Source: Lachnospiraceae bacterium (GTDB taxonomy: Bacteria > Bacillota > Clostridia > Lachnospirales > Lachnospiraceae). From it: DNA of 64,000 nucleotides. Under the pieces are notes generated by a model. The model was not told the DNA's origin and made no database searches. It worked only from the letters and a program-made list of their open reading frames with translations. The DNA lies in the NCBI GenBank assembly GCA_017546025.1, contig JAFYYS010000027.1:43716-107715 (forward strand), written 5' to 3'. The position numbers and the translations under genes are program-made. Each line of letters opens with the position of its first letter. The first letter of the stretch is position 1. Shown here piece after piece: positions 43,702 to 62,073 of this stretch.

Positions 43702-43736
43702 AAAAGCGAGGCTGTTTCGGCAGCCTCGCCTTTTTG
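43702..43736. terminator. Bidirectional terminator between convergent genes
   Basis: GCGAGGCTG pairs perfectly with CAGCCTCGC around TTTCGG, flanked by AAAA and TTTTT. Confidence 0.9.
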
Positions 43737-53269: not shown

Positions 53270-53500
53270 ATGTTTGATAAGATTTTGCAGATTATGGAAG
53301 AGCAGCTCGGCATTGATACCGCCGGTGTAACAGAGGAGACCACGTTCCGTGAAGATCTCAGAATTGATTCTCTGGATCTGTATGAGCTGGTAACCGCTCT
53401 TGAGGACGAGTATGACATCGAGATTCAGCCGGAAGAGCTGGACGAGATTAAGAGTGTCGGAGACGTTGTGGAGTTTCTGGCATCTAAGGGAATCGAGTAG
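53270..53500 (+). CDS. acpP: Acyl carrier protein
   Basis: A 76-residue carrier with the phosphopantetheine attachment Ser34 in DLRIDSLDLYELV and an acidic four-helix sequence (PEELDEIKSVGDVVEFL). The ATG at 53270 is preceded by AAGGAG; a GTG immediately before it is closer than ideal. It is a single-gene unit away from any fatty acid synthesis cluster, so it may be the main ACP or a dedicated one; the D-S-L-D variant (rather than D-S-L-E/D-T) is common in Clostridia. Confidence 0.92.
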   Translation: MFDKILQIMEEQLGIDTAGVTEETTFREDLRIDSLDLYELVTALEDEYDIEIQPEELDEIKSVGDVVEFLASKGIE

Positions 53501-53527
53501 GATTCTGCATAAAACCTAAGAAATCAG

Positions 53528-53563
53528 ATACCCTTCTTCGGGCAGCCGGAGAAGGGTATTTTC
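53528..53563 (+). terminator. Terminator after acpP
   Basis: ATACCCTTCT pairs with AGAAGGGTAT around a GC-rich loop, followed by TTTTC. Confidence 0.8.
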
Positions 53564-53580
53564 ATGTCCGCGGGCAAGTT

Positions 53581-53603
53581 GTAACCGAACGGTTACGGTT
53601 TTT
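53581..53603 (+). terminator. Second terminator-like hairpin before dapF
   Basis: GTAACCG and CGGTTAC pair around AA, followed by GGTTTTTT. With the hairpin 20 bases upstream it forms a tandem terminator, or it is a palindromic operator. Confidence 0.55.
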
Positions 53604-53709
53604 TCACAGCATGGTCACATAGTTCTGCTATACTCCGCTCATTATCGGGCGCGCCCGGAGATGCGGTTTTATGGAAAATGTGACCGTTTCCCCTCCCGAT
53701 GGGGTTCAT

Positions 53710-53738
53710 TTGACAATTGTAGAATAAACATTTATAAT
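53710..53738 (+). promoter_or_regulatory. Promoter of dapF
   Basis: TTGACA (53710-53715), 17-base spacer, TATAAT (53733-53738). GGAAAATGTGAC lies 27 bases upstream of the -35. Confidence 0.85.
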
Positions 53739-53787
53739 ATTATACTGGTTTATGATACGCCGTTTGGCGGCACGGAAGGAATACCGT

Positions 53788-54621
53788 ATGAATTTTACGA
53801 AAATGCACGGTTGTGCCAATGATTACATTTATGTGGACTGCACGAAGGAGTCGGTTAAAAATCCAGGCCCTCTTGCGGTCCGTTTGAGCGACCGTCACAC
53901 CGGAATCGGCGGTGACGGAATGATTCTGATCAAACCGTCCGAGCGCGGCGATTTCTTCATGGAAATGTACAATGCAGACGGCAGTCTCGGAAAGATGTGC
54001 GGCAACGGCATCCGCTGCGTCGGCAAATACGTTTATGACCACCGTCTGACGGACAAAACGGAGCTTACCATCGATACGCCGGCAGGACTCAGGTACCTGA
54101 CCCTTCATGTGGAGGACGGCGTAACGAAGAGCGTTACCGTTAACATGGGGCACCCTTCGATGCGCCCCGAGGACCTTCCCGTTTTGGTAAAGGCGGGAGA
54201 CATCACCTATCCGGTGGAATCTGCCGGAAGAAACCTTTTGTTCACCCCGGTTTCTATGGGCAACCCCCACGCGGTGATTCTTGTTTCCGAGACAAAGGAT
54301 TATCCGGTGCAGGAGGTCGGTGAGCCGATTGAAAAGAATCCGCTGTTTCCGGAAGGGGTTAACGTCGAATTTGTCAAAGTAATATCAAAAGAGGAAATCT
54401 CGATGCGCGTCTGGGAGCGGGGCTCCGGAGAGACCTGGGCCTGCGGTACCGGTGCTTGCGCGTCGGCTTACGCCTGCTATGTGCGCGGGCTTACGGGACC
54501 GTCCGTGACGGTTCATCTTCTCGGAGGAGACCTTTTCATCCGCTACGATGAAAAGGAGGATGTGATTTATATGACCGGTCCCGCCGTAACGGTTTTCGAG
54601 GGAACGGTTGAGACGGACTGA
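53788..54621 (+). CDS. dapF: Diaminopimelate epimerase
   Basis: A 277-residue enzyme converting LL- to meso-diaminopimelate for lysine and peptidoglycan synthesis. The two catalytic Cys are in GKMCGNGIRCVG and WACGTGACASA. The N terminus MHGCANDYIYVDC differs slightly from the usual MHGLGNDF. The ATG at 53788 follows GGAAGGA; the in-frame extension covers the transcription start. It precedes the dockerin/hydrolase gene by 38 bases with no terminator between, so wall precursor synthesis and the wall-active protein may be co-expressed. Confidence 0.93.
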   Translation: MNFTKMHGCANDYIYVDCTKESVKNPGPLAVRLSDRHTGIGGDGMILIKPSERGDFFMEMYNADGSLGKMCGNGIRCVGKYVYDHRLTDKTELTIDTPAGLRYLTLHVEDGVTKSVTVNMGHPSMRPEDLPVLVKAGDITYPVESAGRNLLFTPVSMGNPHAVILVSETKDYPVQEVGEPIEKNPLFPEGVNVEFVKVISKEEISMRVWERGSGETWACGTGACASAYACYVRGLTGPSVTVHLLGGDLFIRYDEKEDVIYMTGPAVTVFEGTVETD

Positions 54622-54659
54622 ACGCTTAACTTACGCGATCTGTGAAAGGAGGAAACAGG

Positions 54660-57368
54660 ATGAAACACGGACATCGCTTTCTCAGCCTGATGCTTGCGCT
54701 TGTGCTGATATGTCCCATATTCCTGCCTGTTTCGGGAAGGACAGCCTATGCGGCTGCCACGGAAGAAACCTATTCGCCGACCAAAAAGGGCACGATTAAT
54801 TCGCCCGTCAACGGTACTTTGAACGCCCGTGTGGATGCACGATCCGATTCCGCGCTTGCCGATACGCTTGCAAACGGCACCCAGGTGGAAATCCTCGGAA
54901 AGAAGCAGTACCCGGGCATAAAGGCGTGGTATAAGATTCGTTACACGAAGAACGGCGTAACGAAGGAAGCATACGGCTTCGCCGAGTATATCACGGTGAC
55001 GGGAACGAATAACACCAATACGAACAATAACAACAACGGTAAGCCTGTTTCGAAGTATGAGACCTACAGTCCCGCGAAGCTCGGCTATACCGACTATGCG
55101 CCTGCCACGAATGCCAGAACCGCTGCGACCAGCAGTGCGGCCTTCGTGAAGGATAAGAACGGCAATGCGGTGCAGCTTCCGTGCGGCGTGAAGGTAAAGG
55201 TTTACGCACAGGAGGGCACCTATTATAAGTGCGGCATTACGGTAGACGGCGCCGAGAAGATCGGTTATCTCTATGCCGGTTATGTCCGGATTTACACGGT
55301 TCCGAGCGGCGACGACGCATTTGTCGCAGACCTTCGAAGCCAGGGCTTCCCGGAATCCTATATCGAGCCGCTCCGCATCCTGCACGCCCAGCACCCGCAG
55401 TGGGTATTCAAGGCCGACAAGAACAACCTTGACTGGACAGCAGCACTGAATGCGGAAAGCGCCTACCAGGTGGCACTCGTTAATTATACGAGCCCTACCT
55501 CCTGGAAGAGCCTTGATGAAATTGCATATGTTTATAAGACCTCGGACAATAAGGACGGCGGCTGGAAGAAGCTGGACGGCTTCCATTGGGAAGCAGCCAA
55601 CAGAACGGCGACGGCGTACTTCATGGATCCGAGAAACTTCCTGACCGAGTCGGAAATCTTCCAGTTCGAGAGCCAGACCTACGATGCTTCGATTCATACA
55701 TTGGAGCGTATCCAGAGTCTTCTCGAAGGAACCTTCATGGAAGGTGTCGTTCCGAACGAGTATAAGTGGAGAAGCCAGACCGTTGTTCGCGATGACAAAG
55801 GATACGTAGCACGGATTGATACCGATGAGGTACTGACCGGCGGCACGCCGCTTACGTATGCGGAAGTATTCCTGTACTCGGCACAGATTTCCGGTGTAAG
55901 TCCGGATATGCTTGTGGCACGTGTCATTCAGGAGATGGGCATCAACGGAACATCGCTGATCATCTCGGGTAACTCGAAGACCGCGCCCGGCCATTACAAC
56001 TATTACGACTTCGGCACCTATGCAACGGCTACCGCGGACGCGATTACGAACGGTCTCATCTACGCGAAGAAGGAAGATCCGAGATACTGTCTTCCCTGGA
56101 ACAGACGCTGGAAGGCCCTGTACGGCGGCGCGATTCTGATCGGCCGTGATTATATCAGCAAGGGCCAGGATACGCTTTACTATCAGAAGTTCAATGTAAA
56201 GCCCAATTCGAACGGTTATAAGGTTTACAGCCATCAGTATATGACCAACATTCAGGCTCCGTCCAATGAGGCGAGAACCATGTACAGCGCCTGTCCGGAT
56301 CTGGATGTGCCGTTGATCTTCAAGATTCCGGTTTACAACAACATGCCGGAACAGGTCAGCCCCTTCCCGGAAGGCAACTCGACGGCCAACCCGAACCCGT
56401 ATCTGAAGAGCATTACCGTAGCAGGACAGGATCTTACGCCTGCCTTCGATTACAAGACCTTTAACTATGATGTGGTTGTTGACCAGTCCGTCAGTGAAGT
56501 AACAATCAGCGCGGAAGCACTTGCCACGGCGACGAAGATTACCGGAACCGGAAAGGTTACGCTGAAGCTCGGTGAGAATAAGATTACTGTGCGATCCACT
56601 GCGGCATTCGGCAACTATAAAGAATATGTCATCAATATATACCGCGAAGCTACCGGAGGCGGCGGAGAAGTCTCAGAGCGCATTAAGACTTCATATATTC
56701 TGGAAGATGATTACCTGTCGGGCGTCGCTCCCGGAACCGGGGTTGAAAATCTGTTGAAGAATTTCCAGCTGACAAACGGCGGAACCGTGACGGTATTAGA
56801 TCCATCAGGGAAAGCCGTGACAAGCGGTAATGTCGGAACCGGATATAAGGTTAAGACACCGCAACAGCAGTTTACGGTGCTGGTTTACGGGGATGTCAAT
56901 AAAGACGGAGATATATCTGCTCTTGATCTTTTGTATATCAAGCGTCACATGCTGAAACTTGTGACATTGGATGCTGTGGCGAAGATGGCAGCCGATGTAA
57001 AGGAAGACAATTCGACAGACGCTTATGACCTGCTGTATATTAAGCGACACATTTTGGGACTGGCTTCCATCTCGCAGCCGAAGGGAACCGAAAAGATTTA
57101 CGGTCCGGAGAATACGCCGACGCCGACACCGGCACCGACCAATACGCCTGTACCGACGAATACACCGGTACCGACCGAGGCGCCGAGTCCGACACCGGTA
57201 CCGACCGAGACGCCGAGCCCCACACCGGTACCGACCGAGACACCGAGTCCGACACCGGTACCGACCGAGACACCGAGTCCGACAGCGATACCGACTGAGG
57301 TGCCGAGTGTAACCCCTGTACCGACTTCGTCTCCTGACGGAAATTCGGGAGAGGGCAATCAGGGATAA
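54660..57368 (+). CDS. Secreted SH3 / glucosaminidase-like / cadherin-like / dockerin multidomain protein
   Basis: A 902-residue exported protein; AAAGGAGG seven bases before the ATG sets the start. Signal peptide (1-31). Two SH3b-like domains (about 40-105, [17 protein letters not shown], and 130-215). A GH73/LytB-like N-acetylglucosaminidase region (about 215-560: [51 protein letters not shown] with a likely catalytic Glu, [22 protein letters not shown]). A cadherin-like beta-sandwich domain (about 577-665). A dockerin type I (about 741-802) with one canonical calcium loop [12 protein letters not shown] and one degenerate [12 protein letters not shown], each followed by LLYIKRH. A Thr-Pro-rich tail ends it. 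Predicted to cut peptidoglycan glycan strands. The next gene encodes a cohesin-like partner. Confidence 0.82.
57113..57345 (+). repeat. Tandem repeat encoding a Thr-Pro-rich tail
   Basis: An imperfect repeat of about 30 bases (core CCGACACCGGTACCGACCGAG) encodes [14 protein letters not shown] units, four to five times. Likely a flexible or glycosylated linker; prone to length change. Confidence 0.8.
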
Positions 57369-57422
57369 TCAGCCATTATTCTTTCAGCGATTTAATGTGT
57401 TCGGAGGAGTTTTTATATCATT

Positions 57423-58970
57423 ATGAAGCATACAAGGATTGTGAAAGCATTAGCCGTATGGATGGCAATGATGCTCGCGGTGATTTCACTTGGAGGCAAG
57501 CCTGCCAAGGCTGACGAATCGGCAACTGTCAGACTGAGTTCGGCTACTGTGGAGAAGGGAAAGACTGTAACAGTTGTCCTGACAGTTTCTGCGACATCAA
57601 CCATTGGTATAATAGATGTCGTCTTCTCTTTTGATTCATCTAAGTTACAATATGAATCCGGTGACGGTAGGGGAGTGCCTTCCGGGAATACAATCCATGT
57701 CATTGATTATGAGGAGAAAAAATCAGGCAGTTACAGCTTTATTTTTAAGGCGATTGATGTAGCCGAAGGAGGAACAGCAATCTCCATTACGAGCGCAACA
57801 GTTAGCCCGCTGGATCCCGCTTTAGGTGATTCCTTCCCGACGTCGAAGCAGAACGGTTCCGTAAAGATCACTGCCCCTTACCAGGCTTCAACGAATGCTG
57901 AGCTCGCTTCCCTTTCGATGGGTGAGGCGAACATTTCTCCGGCATTTTCCAAGGATGTTTTGAACTATACCGCTTCTGTCGGCGGAACCGTCAGCAAGGT
58001 TACCGTTTCCGCAAAGGCAGCAGATGCGAAGGCTAAGGTAGCCGTTACCGGCAACACCGGTCTGAAGGAAGGCGCGAATACCGTAAGCGTTAAGGTTACG
58101 GCTGAGGACGGCACGACCGTTAAGACCTATACCATCACCGTAACAAGAGGCAAGGCTCCGACACCGAAGCCTGCAACGCCTACTCCGACGCCCACGCCGC
58201 CGGTTACCGTGAAGGTCGGCGAGACCAATCTGGCCATTAAGGATAAGCCGGATGCCAAGTATATAAATGACACGGCAGAATGGGAGTCTACAATTGTAGA
58301 ATACGCAACCGGAGGAAAGACGATGAAGATCGGCGCGCTGACCAGCAAAACGACCGGCTTCAATGTCGTAGAGCTTTCCGACGGCAAGCTTTATATCCTG
58401 GATACGGAAAAGGGTACAGCTACCCGCTACGCGAACTTCAGCACCGAATCCCAGAGCATTGTGTTCCTGGATCCCTCGGATGAAGTCATCATCCCGACGG
58501 GGTACAAAAAGACCACCCGCACATTTGACGGGGAGGAAATTACCGCCTACGCCGCTTCCGACACGAGCGAATACGCCATCGTGTACGGCAAGAACAGCAA
58601 GGGTGTGACCGGTTGGTTCCAGCTTGATCTGACCGACGGTTCCTTCCAGCGGTTCAATACGGAGGACATTGAGCTTGTTCCGACTCCGACGCCCACGCCG
58701 ACCCCGACTCCGACGCCTACGCCTGAGCCGACGATGACGCCTACGCCCGAGCCGACAGCAGCGCCGACCCCGACGACGGTTGTGCAGGCAGCTGCCCCGG
58801 CCGCGACGAACAAAGGCCTTTTCTCGGACAAGATCATGACCGGCGCCTGTGTGGTACTGTTCGTCCTTGCCGTGACATTTTTCATCCTCTACATCCTCTC
58901 GAAGAAGAAGTACGAGAGAAGATTCATGCCTGACGAAGAGTTCCTCAACGAGGCGGATGATTACGACTGA
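57423..58970 (+). CDS. Membrane-anchored cohesin-like protein with cadherin-like domain
   Basis: A 515-residue exported protein. Signal peptide (1-30). A cohesin-like beta-sandwich (about 33-150: VRLSSATVEKGKTVTVVLTV, IGIIDVVFSFDSSKLQYES, SYSFIFKAIDVAEGGTAI). A cadherin-like domain (about 160-245, LASLSMGEANISPAFSKDVL). A Thr-Pro linker, an unassigned domain of about 160 residues (VGETNLAIKDKPDAKYIND), a second Thr-Pro linker (TPTPTPTPTPTPEPTMTP), one membrane helix (about 470-492) and an acidic cytoplasmic tail. It starts 54 bases after the dockerin gene, with GGAGGAG somewhat far from the ATG. I infer that it binds the dockerin of its neighbour and holds it at the membrane. Confidence 0.78.
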   Translation: MKHTRIVKALAVWMAMMLAVISLGGKPAKADESATVRLSSATVEKGKTVTVVLTVSATSTIGIIDVVFSFDSSKLQYESGDGRGVPSGNTIHVIDYEEKKSGSYSFIFKAIDVAEGGTAISITSATVSPLDPALGDSFPTSKQNGSVKITAPYQASTNAELASLSMGEANISPAFSKDVLNYTASVGGTVSKVTVSAKAADAKAKVAVTGNTGLKEGANTVSVKVTAEDGTTVKTYTITVTRGKAPTPKPATPTPTPTPPVTVKVGETNLAIKDKPDAKYINDTAEWESTIVEYATGGKTMKIGALTSKTTGFNVVELSDGKLYILDTEKGTATRYANFSTESQSIVFLDPSDEVIIPTGYKKTTRTFDGEEITAYAASDTSEYAIVYGKNSKGVTGWFQLDLTDGSFQRFNTEDIELVPTPTPTPTPTPTPTPEPTMTPTPEPTAAPTPTTVVQAAAPAATNKGLFSDKIMTGACVVLFVLAVTFFILYILSKKKYERRFMPDEEFLNEADDYD

Positions 58971-58990
58971 TACTGATTGAATTGACATTG

Positions 58991-59029
58991 AACCCGGACG
59001 CTGGCGGCGCCCGGGTTTTCTTTGTTTTT
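58991..59029 (+). terminator. Terminator after the cohesin-like gene
   Basis: AACCCGG pairs with CCGGGTT around a GC-rich loop, followed by TTCTTTGTTTTT. Confidence 0.8.
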
Positions 59030-59043
59030 CGAGGCTTAACGGG

Positions 59044-59083
59044 CAAGTTCGAACTTGTTTTTTAGGGGCGGATATGGGATAAT
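59044..59083 (+). promoter_or_regulatory. Palindrome and promoter of the M16C peptidase gene
   Basis: CAAGTTCGAACTTG (59044-59057) is a perfect palindrome followed by six T. TTGTTT (59055-59060), 17-base spacer, GATAAT (59078-59083) form the promoter, overlapping the palindrome. Confidence 0.55.
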
Positions 59084-59115
59084 GAAAGCAGTAACGACAG
59101 GAGGTACCAAAGTCC

Positions 59116-62073
59116 ATGAAAGACTTGGGAACGCTTCAAAACGAAGCATACGAAAGAGTATACGGCAGAAGGCTTCCGGCCTACCAAAGCGACGGGCTGG
59201 TGCTTCGCCATAAGAAGAGCGGCGCACGCATTGTTTTATTGGCAAATGACGACCCCAACAAGGTTTTTGCCATCGCATTCCGCACGACCCCGAAGGACAA
59301 TACCGGGGTGCCGCACATCATAGAGCATTCGGTTCTGTCCGGCTCGGAAAAGTATCCGGTCAAGGATCCGTTCATGGAGCTTGCGAAGGGATCGCTGAAG
59401 ACATTTCTCAACGCATTCACGGGCGCGGATATCACGATGTATCCGGTGGCCAGCTGTAATGAGAAGGATTTCCGCAACCTGGTTGACGTGTACATGGATT
59501 CCGTTCTGCATCCGCAGATTTATCATCGTGAAGAAGTCTTCCGTCAGGAGGGCTGGCGCTACGAGATGGAGAGCGCGGACAGCGAGCTCGCAATCAACGG
59601 CGTTGTTTACAGTGAAATGAAGGGTGCCTATTCCGACCCGGAAACCGGTCTTGAGATGGAGCTTTACCGCACGCTGTTTCCGGATGTGACCTACGGTGTC
59701 GAGTCCGGCGGTGACCCGAGGTACATTCCGGACCTCACCTATGAGGATTTTCTTGCGTTCCACCACACCTACTATTCGCCTGCAAACAGCTATATCTACC
59801 TGTACGGCGATCTGGATATGCAATCTATGCTCACGTATCTGGACGAGGAGTATCTTTCGAAGTACGACATCATCCCCGTGGATTCGGAGATCGGGCTTCA
59901 GAAGCCGACCGGCTACAAACGCGTTGACATGAAGTACTCCGTCGCGGAGGAAGAGGATACGGAGGACAAGGCATATCTGATTTACGGCGCGAAGCTTTTC
60001 GACGGCCCCGATGTGAAGAAATCCGTTGCCTGGGACATTCTGAGCAGCATTCTGTTCAGCATCCCCGGTGCGCCCGTTAAGAAGGCGCTTGTTGACGCCG
60101 GCATCGGCAACGATGTGTCCGGTTCGTTCCACGGCGAGCAGCGTCAGCCGGTTCTTTCGGTGACGGCCCGTGAAACCGACCCCGGAAAAGCTGACGAATT
60201 TCTCCGGATCATCCGCGAAACGGTTGCGGACATCGCCGGGAAGGGACTCAACAAAAAGAGCATCCAGGCAGCCCTGAACCGCGCGGAATTCTCCTTCTTA
60301 GAGGCAGATTTCGGCGGTTATCCGAAGGGTCTGTTCCTGGCGTTCAATTCCTCTACAACCTATCTCTACGATGAGAAGGCAGCATTTGACGGCCTGGACC
60401 GCGGACACTGCTATGAAGAGCTGCGCCGCGATCTCGAGAACGGATACTTTGAAGACCTGCTGCGCGATTTCCTGAATTCGGACAGCTCTGCACTCGTTGT
60501 CATGACACCCGAACCCGGTCTTGCCGCAAAGCAGGAACAGGAGCTTGCAAAGAAGCTTGCCGAGCGCCGCGCAAAGATGAGCAAAGAAGAAATTGATGAG
60601 CTTGTAGCGAAGACGAAGGCTTTGAAGGAATACCAGAGCCGCGTGGAGACCGAGGAGGAGCTTTCCTGCATCCCGAGACTGACCCGCGAGGAGATTGGGA
60701 AGGAGCAGCAGCCCGCTCCGTATACGGTTGAGAAGACCGCGGACGGCATTCCGATTGTACATGTTGACAAGTTCACCGGCGGCATCACCTATCTGCAGAT
60801 GCGCTTTGATACGACCGACATTCCGGAAGAGGAGCTGCCGTATCTCGGCCTCCTGTCAGACATCTACCTCGGCATGGATACGGAGCATTATTCCTATAAG
60901 GATTTGCAGGATGAGATGAATTTCCACGCCGGCGGCATTAACGGATATCTGGAATCCACCCCGATTAAGGGCGACATCGGCGCGATGAAGGCTTTCTTTA
61001 CGATTGCCGTGAAGGTTTTGGACGGAAAACTCGAGAAGGGCATTGACCTTGCCTGGGAAGGCATCGGAAGAGTGAAGCTTGAAGATGCTGACCGTCTTCG
61101 TGAAATCATGGCCGAGCTGGCAGTCAGACTTCCCGCCGCAATGGAGGGACGCGGCCATACAACCGCGAGAGAGCTTGCATACTCTTATTTCAGTCCCGCA
61201 AGCCGCTACACCTACCTGTCCTGCGGCGAGAGCTACTATGAGAAGCTCCGCGGCTGGCTTGCCGATTTCGACAATGTGAAGGATGATTTGTTTGAGCATC
61301 TTCGCCGTATGCGTGCGCATGTGTTTAATGCGGCCAATCTGACACTCGGTGTTACGGCGGATGCGAGCGGCTATGAGAAGGCCTGCGTGGCATTTGCCAC
61401 AATCCCGGGACTTCTTAAGGAACTTCCGAAGGAGGCTCCGATTGCCGAAATGAAGGCGCTTCCGTGGAAGGGCGGCTACGAGCTTACGAAGAAGAACGAG
61501 GTGCTGACTTACGCCGGTGCCGTGCAGTATAACTGCATCGCCGGAAACCTCCGTACGGCCGGATATGAGTATAACGGTGCATATGCCGTGCTGAACCGGA
61601 TTCTTACGGATGATTACCTGTGGAATAAGATCCGCGTGCTCGGGGGTGCGTACGGCGCCATGCAGGGCTTCGGCTATATTTCCGGAGACACCTACTTTGT
61701 GACGTACCGTGACCCGAACTGCCGCGAGTCGTTTAAGACGATGGAAAATGTGACGGAGTATGTGGAGAGCCTCTCCCTCAGCGAGAGCGAGGTTACGAAA
61801 TATGTGATTGGTACCATTGCGGCAATGGACATTCCGTATACGCCCGCTTCGATTCTCGGCACCGCCATGAGCCGTTTCTTCACGGGAGTCACGGCGGAAG
61901 AGTGGCAGAAGGTGCGTGACGACATTCTTCGCGTCACGAATGACGATCTGAAGGCGCTTGCACCGATGCTTGATGCCGTAATCAAACAGGGTTACCGGAC
62001 CGCGCTTGCAACGGAGACGGCTGCGAAGGAATGCAGCGATCTGTTCATGGCAAGCCGCGGACTTCGCGGATAG
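59116..62073 (+). CDS. Insulinase-family (M16C, presequence protease-like) metallopeptidase
   Basis: A 985-residue cytoplasmic peptidase of the PreP/falcilysin type. The inverted zinc motif HIIEH (His67, Glu70, His71) lies in GVPHIIEHSVLSGSEKYPVKDPF, followed by the third ligand region around NGVVYSEMKGAYSDPE. Four alpha/beta roll domains are suggested by the full length, joined by a long helical hairpin near residues 470-520 (KQEQELAKKLAERRAKMSKEEIDELVAKT). It degrades oligopeptides enclosed in its chamber. GGAGG is 12 bases before the ATG. Followed by era after eight bases. Confidence 0.92.
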   Translation: MKDLGTLQNEAYERVYGRRLPAYQSDGLVLRHKKSGARIVLLANDDPNKVFAIAFRTTPKDNTGVPHIIEHSVLSGSEKYPVKDPFMELAKGSLKTFLNAFTGADITMYPVASCNEKDFRNLVDVYMDSVLHPQIYHREEVFRQEGWRYEMESADSELAINGVVYSEMKGAYSDPETGLEMELYRTLFPDVTYGVESGGDPRYIPDLTYEDFLAFHHTYYSPANSYIYLYGDLDMQSMLTYLDEEYLSKYDIIPVDSEIGLQKPTGYKRVDMKYSVAEEEDTEDKAYLIYGAKLFDGPDVKKSVAWDILSSILFSIPGAPVKKALVDAGIGNDVSGSFHGEQRQPVLSVTARETDPGKADEFLRIIRETVADIAGKGLNKKSIQAALNRAEFSFLEADFGGYPKGLFLAFNSSTTYLYDEKAAFDGLDRGHCYEELRRDLENGYFEDLLRDFLNSDSSALVVMTPEPGLAAKQEQELAKKLAERRAKMSKEEIDELVAKTKALKEYQSRVETEEELSCIPRLTREEIGKEQQPAPYTVEKTADGIPIVHVDKFTGGITYLQMRFDTTDIPEEELPYLGLLSDIYLGMDTEHYSYKDLQDEMNFHAGGINGYLESTPIKGDIGAMKAFFTIAVKVLDGKLEKGIDLAWEGIGRVKLEDADRLREIMAELAVRLPAAMEGRGHTTARELAYSYFSPASRYTYLSCGESYYEKLRGWLADFDNVKDDLFEHLRRMRAHVFNAANLTLGVTADASGYEKACVAFATIPGLLKELPKEAPIAEMKALPWKGGYELTKKNEVLTYAGAVQYNCIAGNLRTAGYEYNGAYAVLNRILTDDYLWNKIRVLGGAYGAMQGFGYISGDTYFVTYRDPNCRESFKTMENVTEYVESLSLSESEVTKYVIGTIAAMDIPYTPASILGTAMSRFFTGVTAEEWQKVRDDILRVTNDDLKALAPMLDAVIKQGYRTALATETAAKECSDLFMASRGLRG

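Follow-up and report, generated by a model that had tools for sequence, protein, structure and literature searches.

Described systems and the locus under study

The known role of cohesin and dockerin domains is to connect the parts of cellulosomes and of other digestive complexes. Uses outside cellulosomes have also been described. A lone cohesin of Ruminococcus albus has been suggested as the likely cell-surface anchor for isolated dockerin enzymes, and some Clostridiales hold few dockerins and no cohesins (PMC6118326). For the Clostridium thermocellum dockerins that recruit lone enzymes to the cell surface, and for a two-protein toxin of Clostridium perfringens, single-mode binding is reported, dual-mode binding having been proposed to evolve for cellulosomes with few scaffoldins, where it would limit enzyme clashes (PMC5429695). 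Here we analyzed a window (the whole stretch of 64,000 nucleotides, positions 43,716 to 107,715 of the forward strand of contig JAFYYS010000027.1) from the Lachnospiraceae bacterium assembly GCA_017546025.1, in which two adjacent plus-strand genes encode a secreted predicted glucosaminidase bearing a dockerin (gene 1, 54660..57368, 902 amino acids; protein 1) and a predicted membrane-anchored cohesin protein (gene 2, 57423..58970, 515 amino acids; protein 2). The conservation of this pair, the matched halves of the dockerin and the covariation between dockerin and cohesin sequences, together with a model of the joined domains, make it probable that the two proteins form a one-plug, one-socket tether, in which the cohesin of protein 2 binds the dockerin of the enzyme and holds it between membrane and wall. 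The tethering of a hydrolase at the membrane, proposed by an original prediction made from the sequence, is thereby supported at the level of prediction, as a recurrent use of the cohesin–dockerin connector outside cellulosomes.

The type I cellulosome pairs of Clostridium cellulolyticum (2vn5/2vn6) and C. thermocellum (1ohz) share with this pair the predicted folds, the sequence matches on both sides and the dockerin symmetry, but the present locus differs in having one cohesin, one over-cut-off dockerin, no scaffold and a predicted peptidoglycan glucosaminidase as client. R. albus likewise has a lone cohesin, suggested as a likely anchor, whereas it has many dockerins and the genome studied here has one, on a predicted wall enzyme (PMC6118326). 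The non-cellulosomal pairs of C. thermocellum and C. perfringens also comprise one dockerin and one cohesin outside any cellulosome, yet their binding is reported as single-mode where symmetry predicts a dual mode here, and their enzymes are different ones (PMC5429695); the structure matches obtained include cohesins of C. perfringens and of OlpA/OlpC, the names being those of the PDB titles. In the SagB–SpdC complex of Staphylococcus aureus a glucosaminidase is also positioned by a membrane partner, but SagB associates with the membrane on its own, SpdC is homologous to CAAX proteases, and the passages on the complex mention neither cohesin nor dockerin (PMC10581084); we would take this likeness as one of working principle only. 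The amylosome and the mucinolysome similarly reuse cohesin–dockerin binding beyond cellulose, but as multi-enzyme, nutritional systems with several scaffoldins (PMC5814915, PMC12997984). A cohesin–dockerin pair for peptidoglycan was not found among the titles and abstract beginnings of the matches listed in a literature search that left subscription papers mostly outside, and none is described in the available portions of PMC9765747 and PMC2914790.

A single dockerin and a single cohesin in the genome

The dockerin of protein 1 (residues 743-799; 56886..57056, + strand) is of type I, with two 22-residue calcium-loop repeats that match PF00404, a predicted dockerin fold, and Ala-Leu and Ala-Tyr as its recognition pairs. 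In protein 2, the cohesin (57519..57872, + strand) matches PF00963 and is predicted to fold as a cohesin over residues 33-150, as the original prediction had read this stretch. Within its own genome this is the only cohesin, the next match having an E-value of 0.755, and the dockerin is the only one over the cut-off, the next match reaching an E-value of 0.0587 and 15.2 bits; this weak second dockerin match was rejected, its frame showing a sub-threshold repeat match only. The sole cohesin gene and the sole over-cut-off dockerin gene are neighbors, and no second cohesin was found in the genome that could serve as another partner.

A cellulosome combines a scaffoldin of several cohesins with many dockerin-bearing plant-polymer enzymes. 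Here the genome holds one cohesin, and its one over-cut-off dockerin sits on a predicted glucosaminidase, which agrees with the earlier claim that no plant-polymer enzyme is involved. The name "mini-cellulosome" given to the pair is loose, as there is one socket, one plug and no scaffold. Could the membrane cohesin instead gather several dockerin clients, the glucosaminidase among them, as a small multi-enzyme scaffold? Some relatives in the genus do encode extra dockerin proteins, such as three in tandem in one genome (G010), but the own genome lacks a second over-cut-off dockerin and protein 2 has a single cohesin, and a scaffold of this kind appears scarcely probable.

Conservation of the gene pair

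Relatives were examined in 22 genomes of the genus, in a family-wide sample of 150 genomes (one per genus) and at 80 named loci. As the original prediction would lead one to expect, the same adjacent pair recurs in them. Both genes occur together in 18 of the 22 genus genomes, with the qualification that one contig holds just the dockerin end of the enzyme (G003) and another just the start of gene 2 (G016). Also in the genus sample, gene 2 stops at an apparent contig end in G014 and G017 and the enzyme lies at a contig end in G015, while neither gene was found in G012, where a cohesin model scores in an unrelated frame of 1592 residues. Counting by PF00963 alone was rejected as too insensitive, since it missed G007 and G016. 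Among the named loci, 43 of 80 carry the cohesin profile; the enzyme adjoins on the same strand in 41 of these 43, and a dockerin is present in 29, the two loci lacking an adjoining enzyme being L069 and L004, whose contig starts inside the gene. By name, the pairs belong among others to Lachnospiraceae, to Pseudoflavonifractor An44 and An85 and further Oscillospiraceae, to Ca. Scatonaster, and to records that carry the label Mollicutes or Bacilli.

Across the family sample, PF00404 matches occur in 53 of the 150 genomes and the protein-2 profile in 138, many of the latter through a match to the cadherin-like domain alone. The best 29 further family loci (L085-L113) all have the cohesin, 27 have an adjoining enzyme and 20 a dockerin. 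Seen from the other side, at least 29 of the 58 dockerin places examined (of 127, from 49 of the 53 genomes) adjoin a protein-2 match. A membrane-type helix past residue 250 is present in 84 of 86 protein-2 rows, the other two being cut by contig ends, and the C-terminal half of the enzyme lacks a hydrophobic 19-mer in 84 of 86 pair loci counted with near-copies left in (exceptions L120 and L132).

This distribution bears on whether the enzyme might digest foreign peptidoglycan, as food or in competition, with the tether retaining it on the surface. The record titles of several relatives name the rumen, omasum or caecum, sites rich in bacterial wall debris. Against this stand the single copy in the own genome, the presence of the pair in those 18 genus genomes, and the C-terminus of protein 2, a membrane helix where surface display would presumably want a wall-sorting signal, and we consider digestion of foreign walls very unlikely.

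Other dockerin and cohesin arrangements were noted in relatives. A second pair type within the genus (L128:797-4784, in G019) begins with a leucine-rich-repeat protein of BspA type, whose dockerin scored 22.4 bits against a cut-off of 22.9 in one scan and over the cut-off in another. A cohesin protein follows, its C-terminus hydrophobic by eye; L125 (G013) is similar by eye and by profile matches. A third (L124:937-5808, in G013) comprises a large protein with a ricin-type lectin, Listeria-Bacteroides repeats and a terminal dockerin, in whose frame a cohesin stretch also scored in one scan, and then a 439-residue cohesin protein. The three tandem dockerin-ended proteins of G010 (L137:1188-5363) begin with a GDSL-type esterase by scan, the other two being alike by eye, and the sole PF00963 match of that genome belongs to the gene pair.

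Matched dockerin halves and covariation with the cohesin

The two halves of 53 different dockerins from gene pairs were compared with shuffles. At positions 10 and 11, which we take from the dockerin literature to be the recognition positions, the halves are identical in 41 of 53 (10.1 expected) and 37 of 53 (7.8 expected) dockerins, respectively, and both positions match as a pair in 28 of 53, against 2.3 expected and a maximum of 9 in 10000 shuffles. A thinned set retained this pattern, with the pair matched in 16 of 26 (1.1 expected) and none of 20000 shuffles as high. Half-matching was also strong at positions 13-15, 17, 18, 20 and 21 (z ≥ 8), and it was not in excess at positions 4, 8 and 16. 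The recognition residues themselves vary between lineages, with Val-Tyr, Pro-Ile, Asn-Ser, Ser-Ala and more. Given the symmetry of its halves, the dockerin may be able to bind in two orientations.

Over 54 loci, the distances among dockerins correlated with those of the partner gene's cohesin at r = 0.62 (partial r 0.33, 0/2000), with those of an unnamed all-beta domain of protein 2, here called XD, at r = 0.56 (partial r 0.25, 0/2000), with the cadherin-like domain of protein 2 at r = 0.47, and with the cadherin-like domain of the dockerin's own protein at r = 0.37. At the sequence level, the divergence of the dockerin thus tracks protein 2 rather than its own neighbor, the cohesin most of all.

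If proteins 1 and 2 were merely co-transcribed wall proteins that do not bind each other, the cohesin-like domain having another ligand, one would expect loci such as the two of 29 in the family in which gene 2 lacks an adjoining enzyme, and genomes such as G153, G054, G080, G109 and G093, which keep the cohesin and have no PF00404 match. Set against the adjacency of the sole plug and the sole socket, the covariation and the half-matching, this explanation is highly improbable.

Predicted docking

The shared reading frame of the two genes enabled a joined chain of dockerin, linker and cohesin (334 residues, about 145 of them linker), which was modeled with AlphaFold2 for the cognate pair only, from an alignment with 84 further rows of which 26 were equally joined. 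The predicted local distance difference test (pLDDT) per ten-residue block was 92-98 over the dockerin and mostly 96-98 over the cohesin, with 97-98 reached across most of the two domains, and the predicted template modeling score (pTM) was 0.62. Since this lies above the roughly 0.4 that we estimate for the cohesin alone and the roughly 0.5 for the cohesin with the linker helix, the dockerin also appears to be placed with some confidence. In solved complexes (2vn5, 1ohz and 2ccl), protein 1 matches one side and protein 2 the other. Structure prediction of domains and complex therefore goes the way the original prediction anticipated, both folds being predicted and the docked arrangement of the joined chain favored.

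Domain architecture of the two proteins

All features of this section lie on the + strand. Protein 1 begins with a signal peptide (residues ~1-32, 54660..54755) with an AYA-A site by eye and a single hydrophobic peak at residue 7, followed by an SH3_3 domain (54816..54992; PF08239, 6.3e-8) and the glucosaminidase domain (residues 222-570, 55323..56369), which matches NF052642 at 1.2e-8, the glucosaminidase of the bifunctional autolysin 6fxo at 1.5e-7 and AtlE (4pi7) at 1e-5. In the alignment, Glu425 (55932..55934) aligns with the LxETG Glu of AtlA/AtlE, which we take to be catalytic and from which Glu425 would draw its role; a Glu stands at this position in 121 of 121 rows, protein 1 included. 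The enzyme is thus of the AtlA/AtlE type in its sequence match across the catalytic lobe and in the aligned Glu, and it is the sole match of its family in the own genome. It reaches 34.5 bits against the 425-bit cut-off of the SagB equivalog NF052642, so that by the equivalog test protein 1 is a distant SagB/Atl-type glucosaminidase and not a SagB orthologue.

A cadherin-like beta-sandwich domain (56403..56648; PF12733, 7e-10) follows, and between it and the dockerin lies an X-like module of about 67 residues (56673..56873, boundaries by eye), similar segments preceding the dockerin, by eye, in L016 and in homologs such as P0279. The protein ends in a Pro/Thr-rich tail, seen in the sequence (57093..57330). 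Two close relatives of the enzyme (P0112 and P0113) have another C-terminal segment in place of the dockerin region.

Protein 2 consists, in order, of a signal peptide, the cohesin, a cadherin-like beta-sandwich domain (residues ~156-245, 57888..58157; PF12733, 3.7e-14 over the Pfam stretch 171-242), XD, a Pro/Thr linker, a C-terminal membrane helix and a positively charged tail (58821..58922; hydropathy 2.79 at residue 474, model helix 467-500). XD (residues ~262-415, 58206..58667) shows two repeats by eye, block pLDDT of 81-92 over residues 261-410 and no Pfam family over the cut-off, and XD profile matches adjoin the cohesin in most protein-2 relatives. No fold is claimed for XD from structure matches, the match list being filled by the cohesin. 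Folded alone, the multidomain protein 2 gave a pTM of 0.40, below that of the joined chain. The regions originally read in the two proteins are borne out by PF08239, NF052642/6fxo, PF12733 and PF00404 for the SH3, glucosaminidase, cadherin-like and dockerin parts of protein 1, and by PF00963, PF12733 and the hydropathy peak for the cohesin, cadherin-like domain and membrane helix of protein 2.

Pairs that lack a dockerin

Some lineages keep the pair with no dockerin on the enzyme. In a protein-2 tree of 73 rows, 18 of 19 dockerin-less rows fall within one clade of 21, alongside three dockerin rows, and the other one (L107) lies outside it. As this clade keeps the pair, the dockerin may not be the sole possible link between the enzyme and protein 2. 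All but two (L105 and L108) of its 18 dockerin-less enzymes end, by eye, in a Gly/Ser/Pro-rich tail. Among the best 120 of 2926 homologs of one dockerin-less enzyme, 81 have no dockerin. Of these, 56 show the motif G(S/G)N(V/I)T(I/V) in their final 40 residues, where it typically forms the extreme C-terminus, GPGGSNVTIV followed by Arg, Gln or Pro. Near-copies are numerous among the 56, and a set thinned with a looser motif contains 83 rows, of which 6 have the tag, 68 a dockerin and 9 neither. Enzymes with this ending include L029, L033, L089, L094 and L095 and those of genomes G132, G140, G067, G153, G135 and G054. A single loss and regain of the dockerin in the clade was rejected, as rows with a dockerin, with the tag and with neither are intermingled in the wider enzyme tree, with 11 changes of state over the 83 rows by a quick method.

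The DNA pattern of the peptide occurs at seven places in 6 of the 150 family genomes. Six of the seven lie on the same strand, 45-114 bases upstream of a protein-2 match, which argues that the peptide is not a general sorting signal; the seventh is a second one in G054, with Cys at the Ser position, located elsewhere. The cohesin might then be a fixed socket with a swapped plug, a symmetric, two-way dockerin in most lineages and the C-terminal GPGGSNVTIV peptide in one clade, the ten-residue peptide perhaps joining the cohesin sandwich as an extra beta strand. We hold this as a tentative and rather doubtful idea, because of the near-copies among the tags and because three peptide genomes (G067, G135 and G140) hold a dockerin elsewhere, in large frames, which could be the partner of the cohesin there. 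If true, it would mean a cohesin that recognizes a short linear tag where others recognize a dockerin, and dual-mode dockerins in a system of one enzyme, contrary to the view of dual binding as an answer to crowded cellulosomes.

The same clade would also fit an activator role, in which the other domains of protein 2 would chiefly serve to orient the glucosaminidase or switch it on, in the manner of SpdC with SagB, and dockerin contact would just help. The dockerin-less pairs retain the cohesin, the cadherin-like domain and XD; XD has no known function, and the dockerin also tracks it; and SagB is oriented by SpdC (PMC10581084). By itself, however, activation leaves the lineage-by-lineage matching of dockerin halves unexplained, and we judge it unlikely as the chief role.

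Genomic context

On the + strand ahead of the pair lies dapF (diaminopimelate epimerase, 53752..54621; PF01678, 7.1e-62), preceded by a TTGACA-17-TATAAT promoter-like site (53710..53738) that fits 12/12 of the consensus and, by consensus match alone, is the candidate promoter of the cluster. The gene cluster may share a transcript, as suggested by this sigma-70-like site and by the four terminator-like sites within 53500-59300, every one of which is on the - strand. An AGGAGG resembling a ribosome-binding site (54647..54652, + strand), read directly 7 bases before the ATG, supports a start of gene 1 at ATG 54660 rather than at GTG 54642, and a similar GGAGGAG (57403..57409, + strand), also read directly, precedes gene 2. 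Downstream in this lineage lies an M16C (PreP-type) peptidase gene (59116..62073, + strand; PF08367, 6e-61).

The dapF family stands upstream of the pair at 10 loci and the M16C family downstream at 8, the window counted in both, and in other lineages the flanking genes are different while the pair stays together. The position of dapF directly upstream was thus correctly noted in the original prediction, but its use as functional evidence for a wall role was dropped, since neighbors vary from lineage to lineage. Where gene 2 lacks an adjoining enzyme in L109 and L113, subtilisin-like and purD-like genes lie upstream and a ClpC-like gene downstream, as named by reading and not by profile. Genes 1 and 2 share one frame in the window and likewise in 16 of 41 named pairs, near the one third or so expected by chance, and stop-codon read-through joining them was rejected as biology.

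A predicted tether for a wall enzyme

Several observations weigh against tethering through the dockerin. Part of the half-matching is general repeat likeness, as smaller excesses at positions 2, 3, 7, 9 and 22 (z 3.1-4.8) indicate; shuffling does not take common ancestry out of it; and the halves of L020, L090 and L092 differ at both positions 10 and 11. Covariation extends to XD and to the cadherin-like domain of protein 2, and at the residue level dockerin–cohesin covariation gave noise and no clean contact map. Cohesin–dockerin complexes were included in the training of AlphaFold2. In the Pfam scans of protein 1 no glucosaminidase family was over the cut-off, PF01832, which we take to be that family, not being among its matches. 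The SH3 domain alone may keep the enzyme on the wall, and one relative (P0125) may, by eye, retain its N-terminal helix as an anchor. Finally, L109 and L113 carry gene 2 with no adjoining enzyme, and the dockerin-less clade keeps the pair.

Under the tether model, which we still regard as probable, the enzyme would be secreted and then captured by its dockerin on the protein-2 cohesin, in a binding expected to require calcium, while the membrane helix of protein 2 would keep the complex beneath the wall. The Pro/Thr linkers would set the reach of the enzyme, which might trim glycan strands near the membrane, by analogy with SagB and SpdC (PMC10581084).

Single-mode binding is what has been published for one-enzyme dockerins, but many of those found here are symmetric, so that the reason for dual binding would become testable in its simplest setting, with the dockerin-missing lineages as a ready comparison set. 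The predicted housekeeping wall-enzyme pair recurs in Lachnospiraceae and also in Oscillospiraceae and other lineages, in many relatives from the gut. If the tether model is true, a cellulosome-type connector would serve in these bacteria the upkeep of their own wall rather than the digestion of plant fiber.

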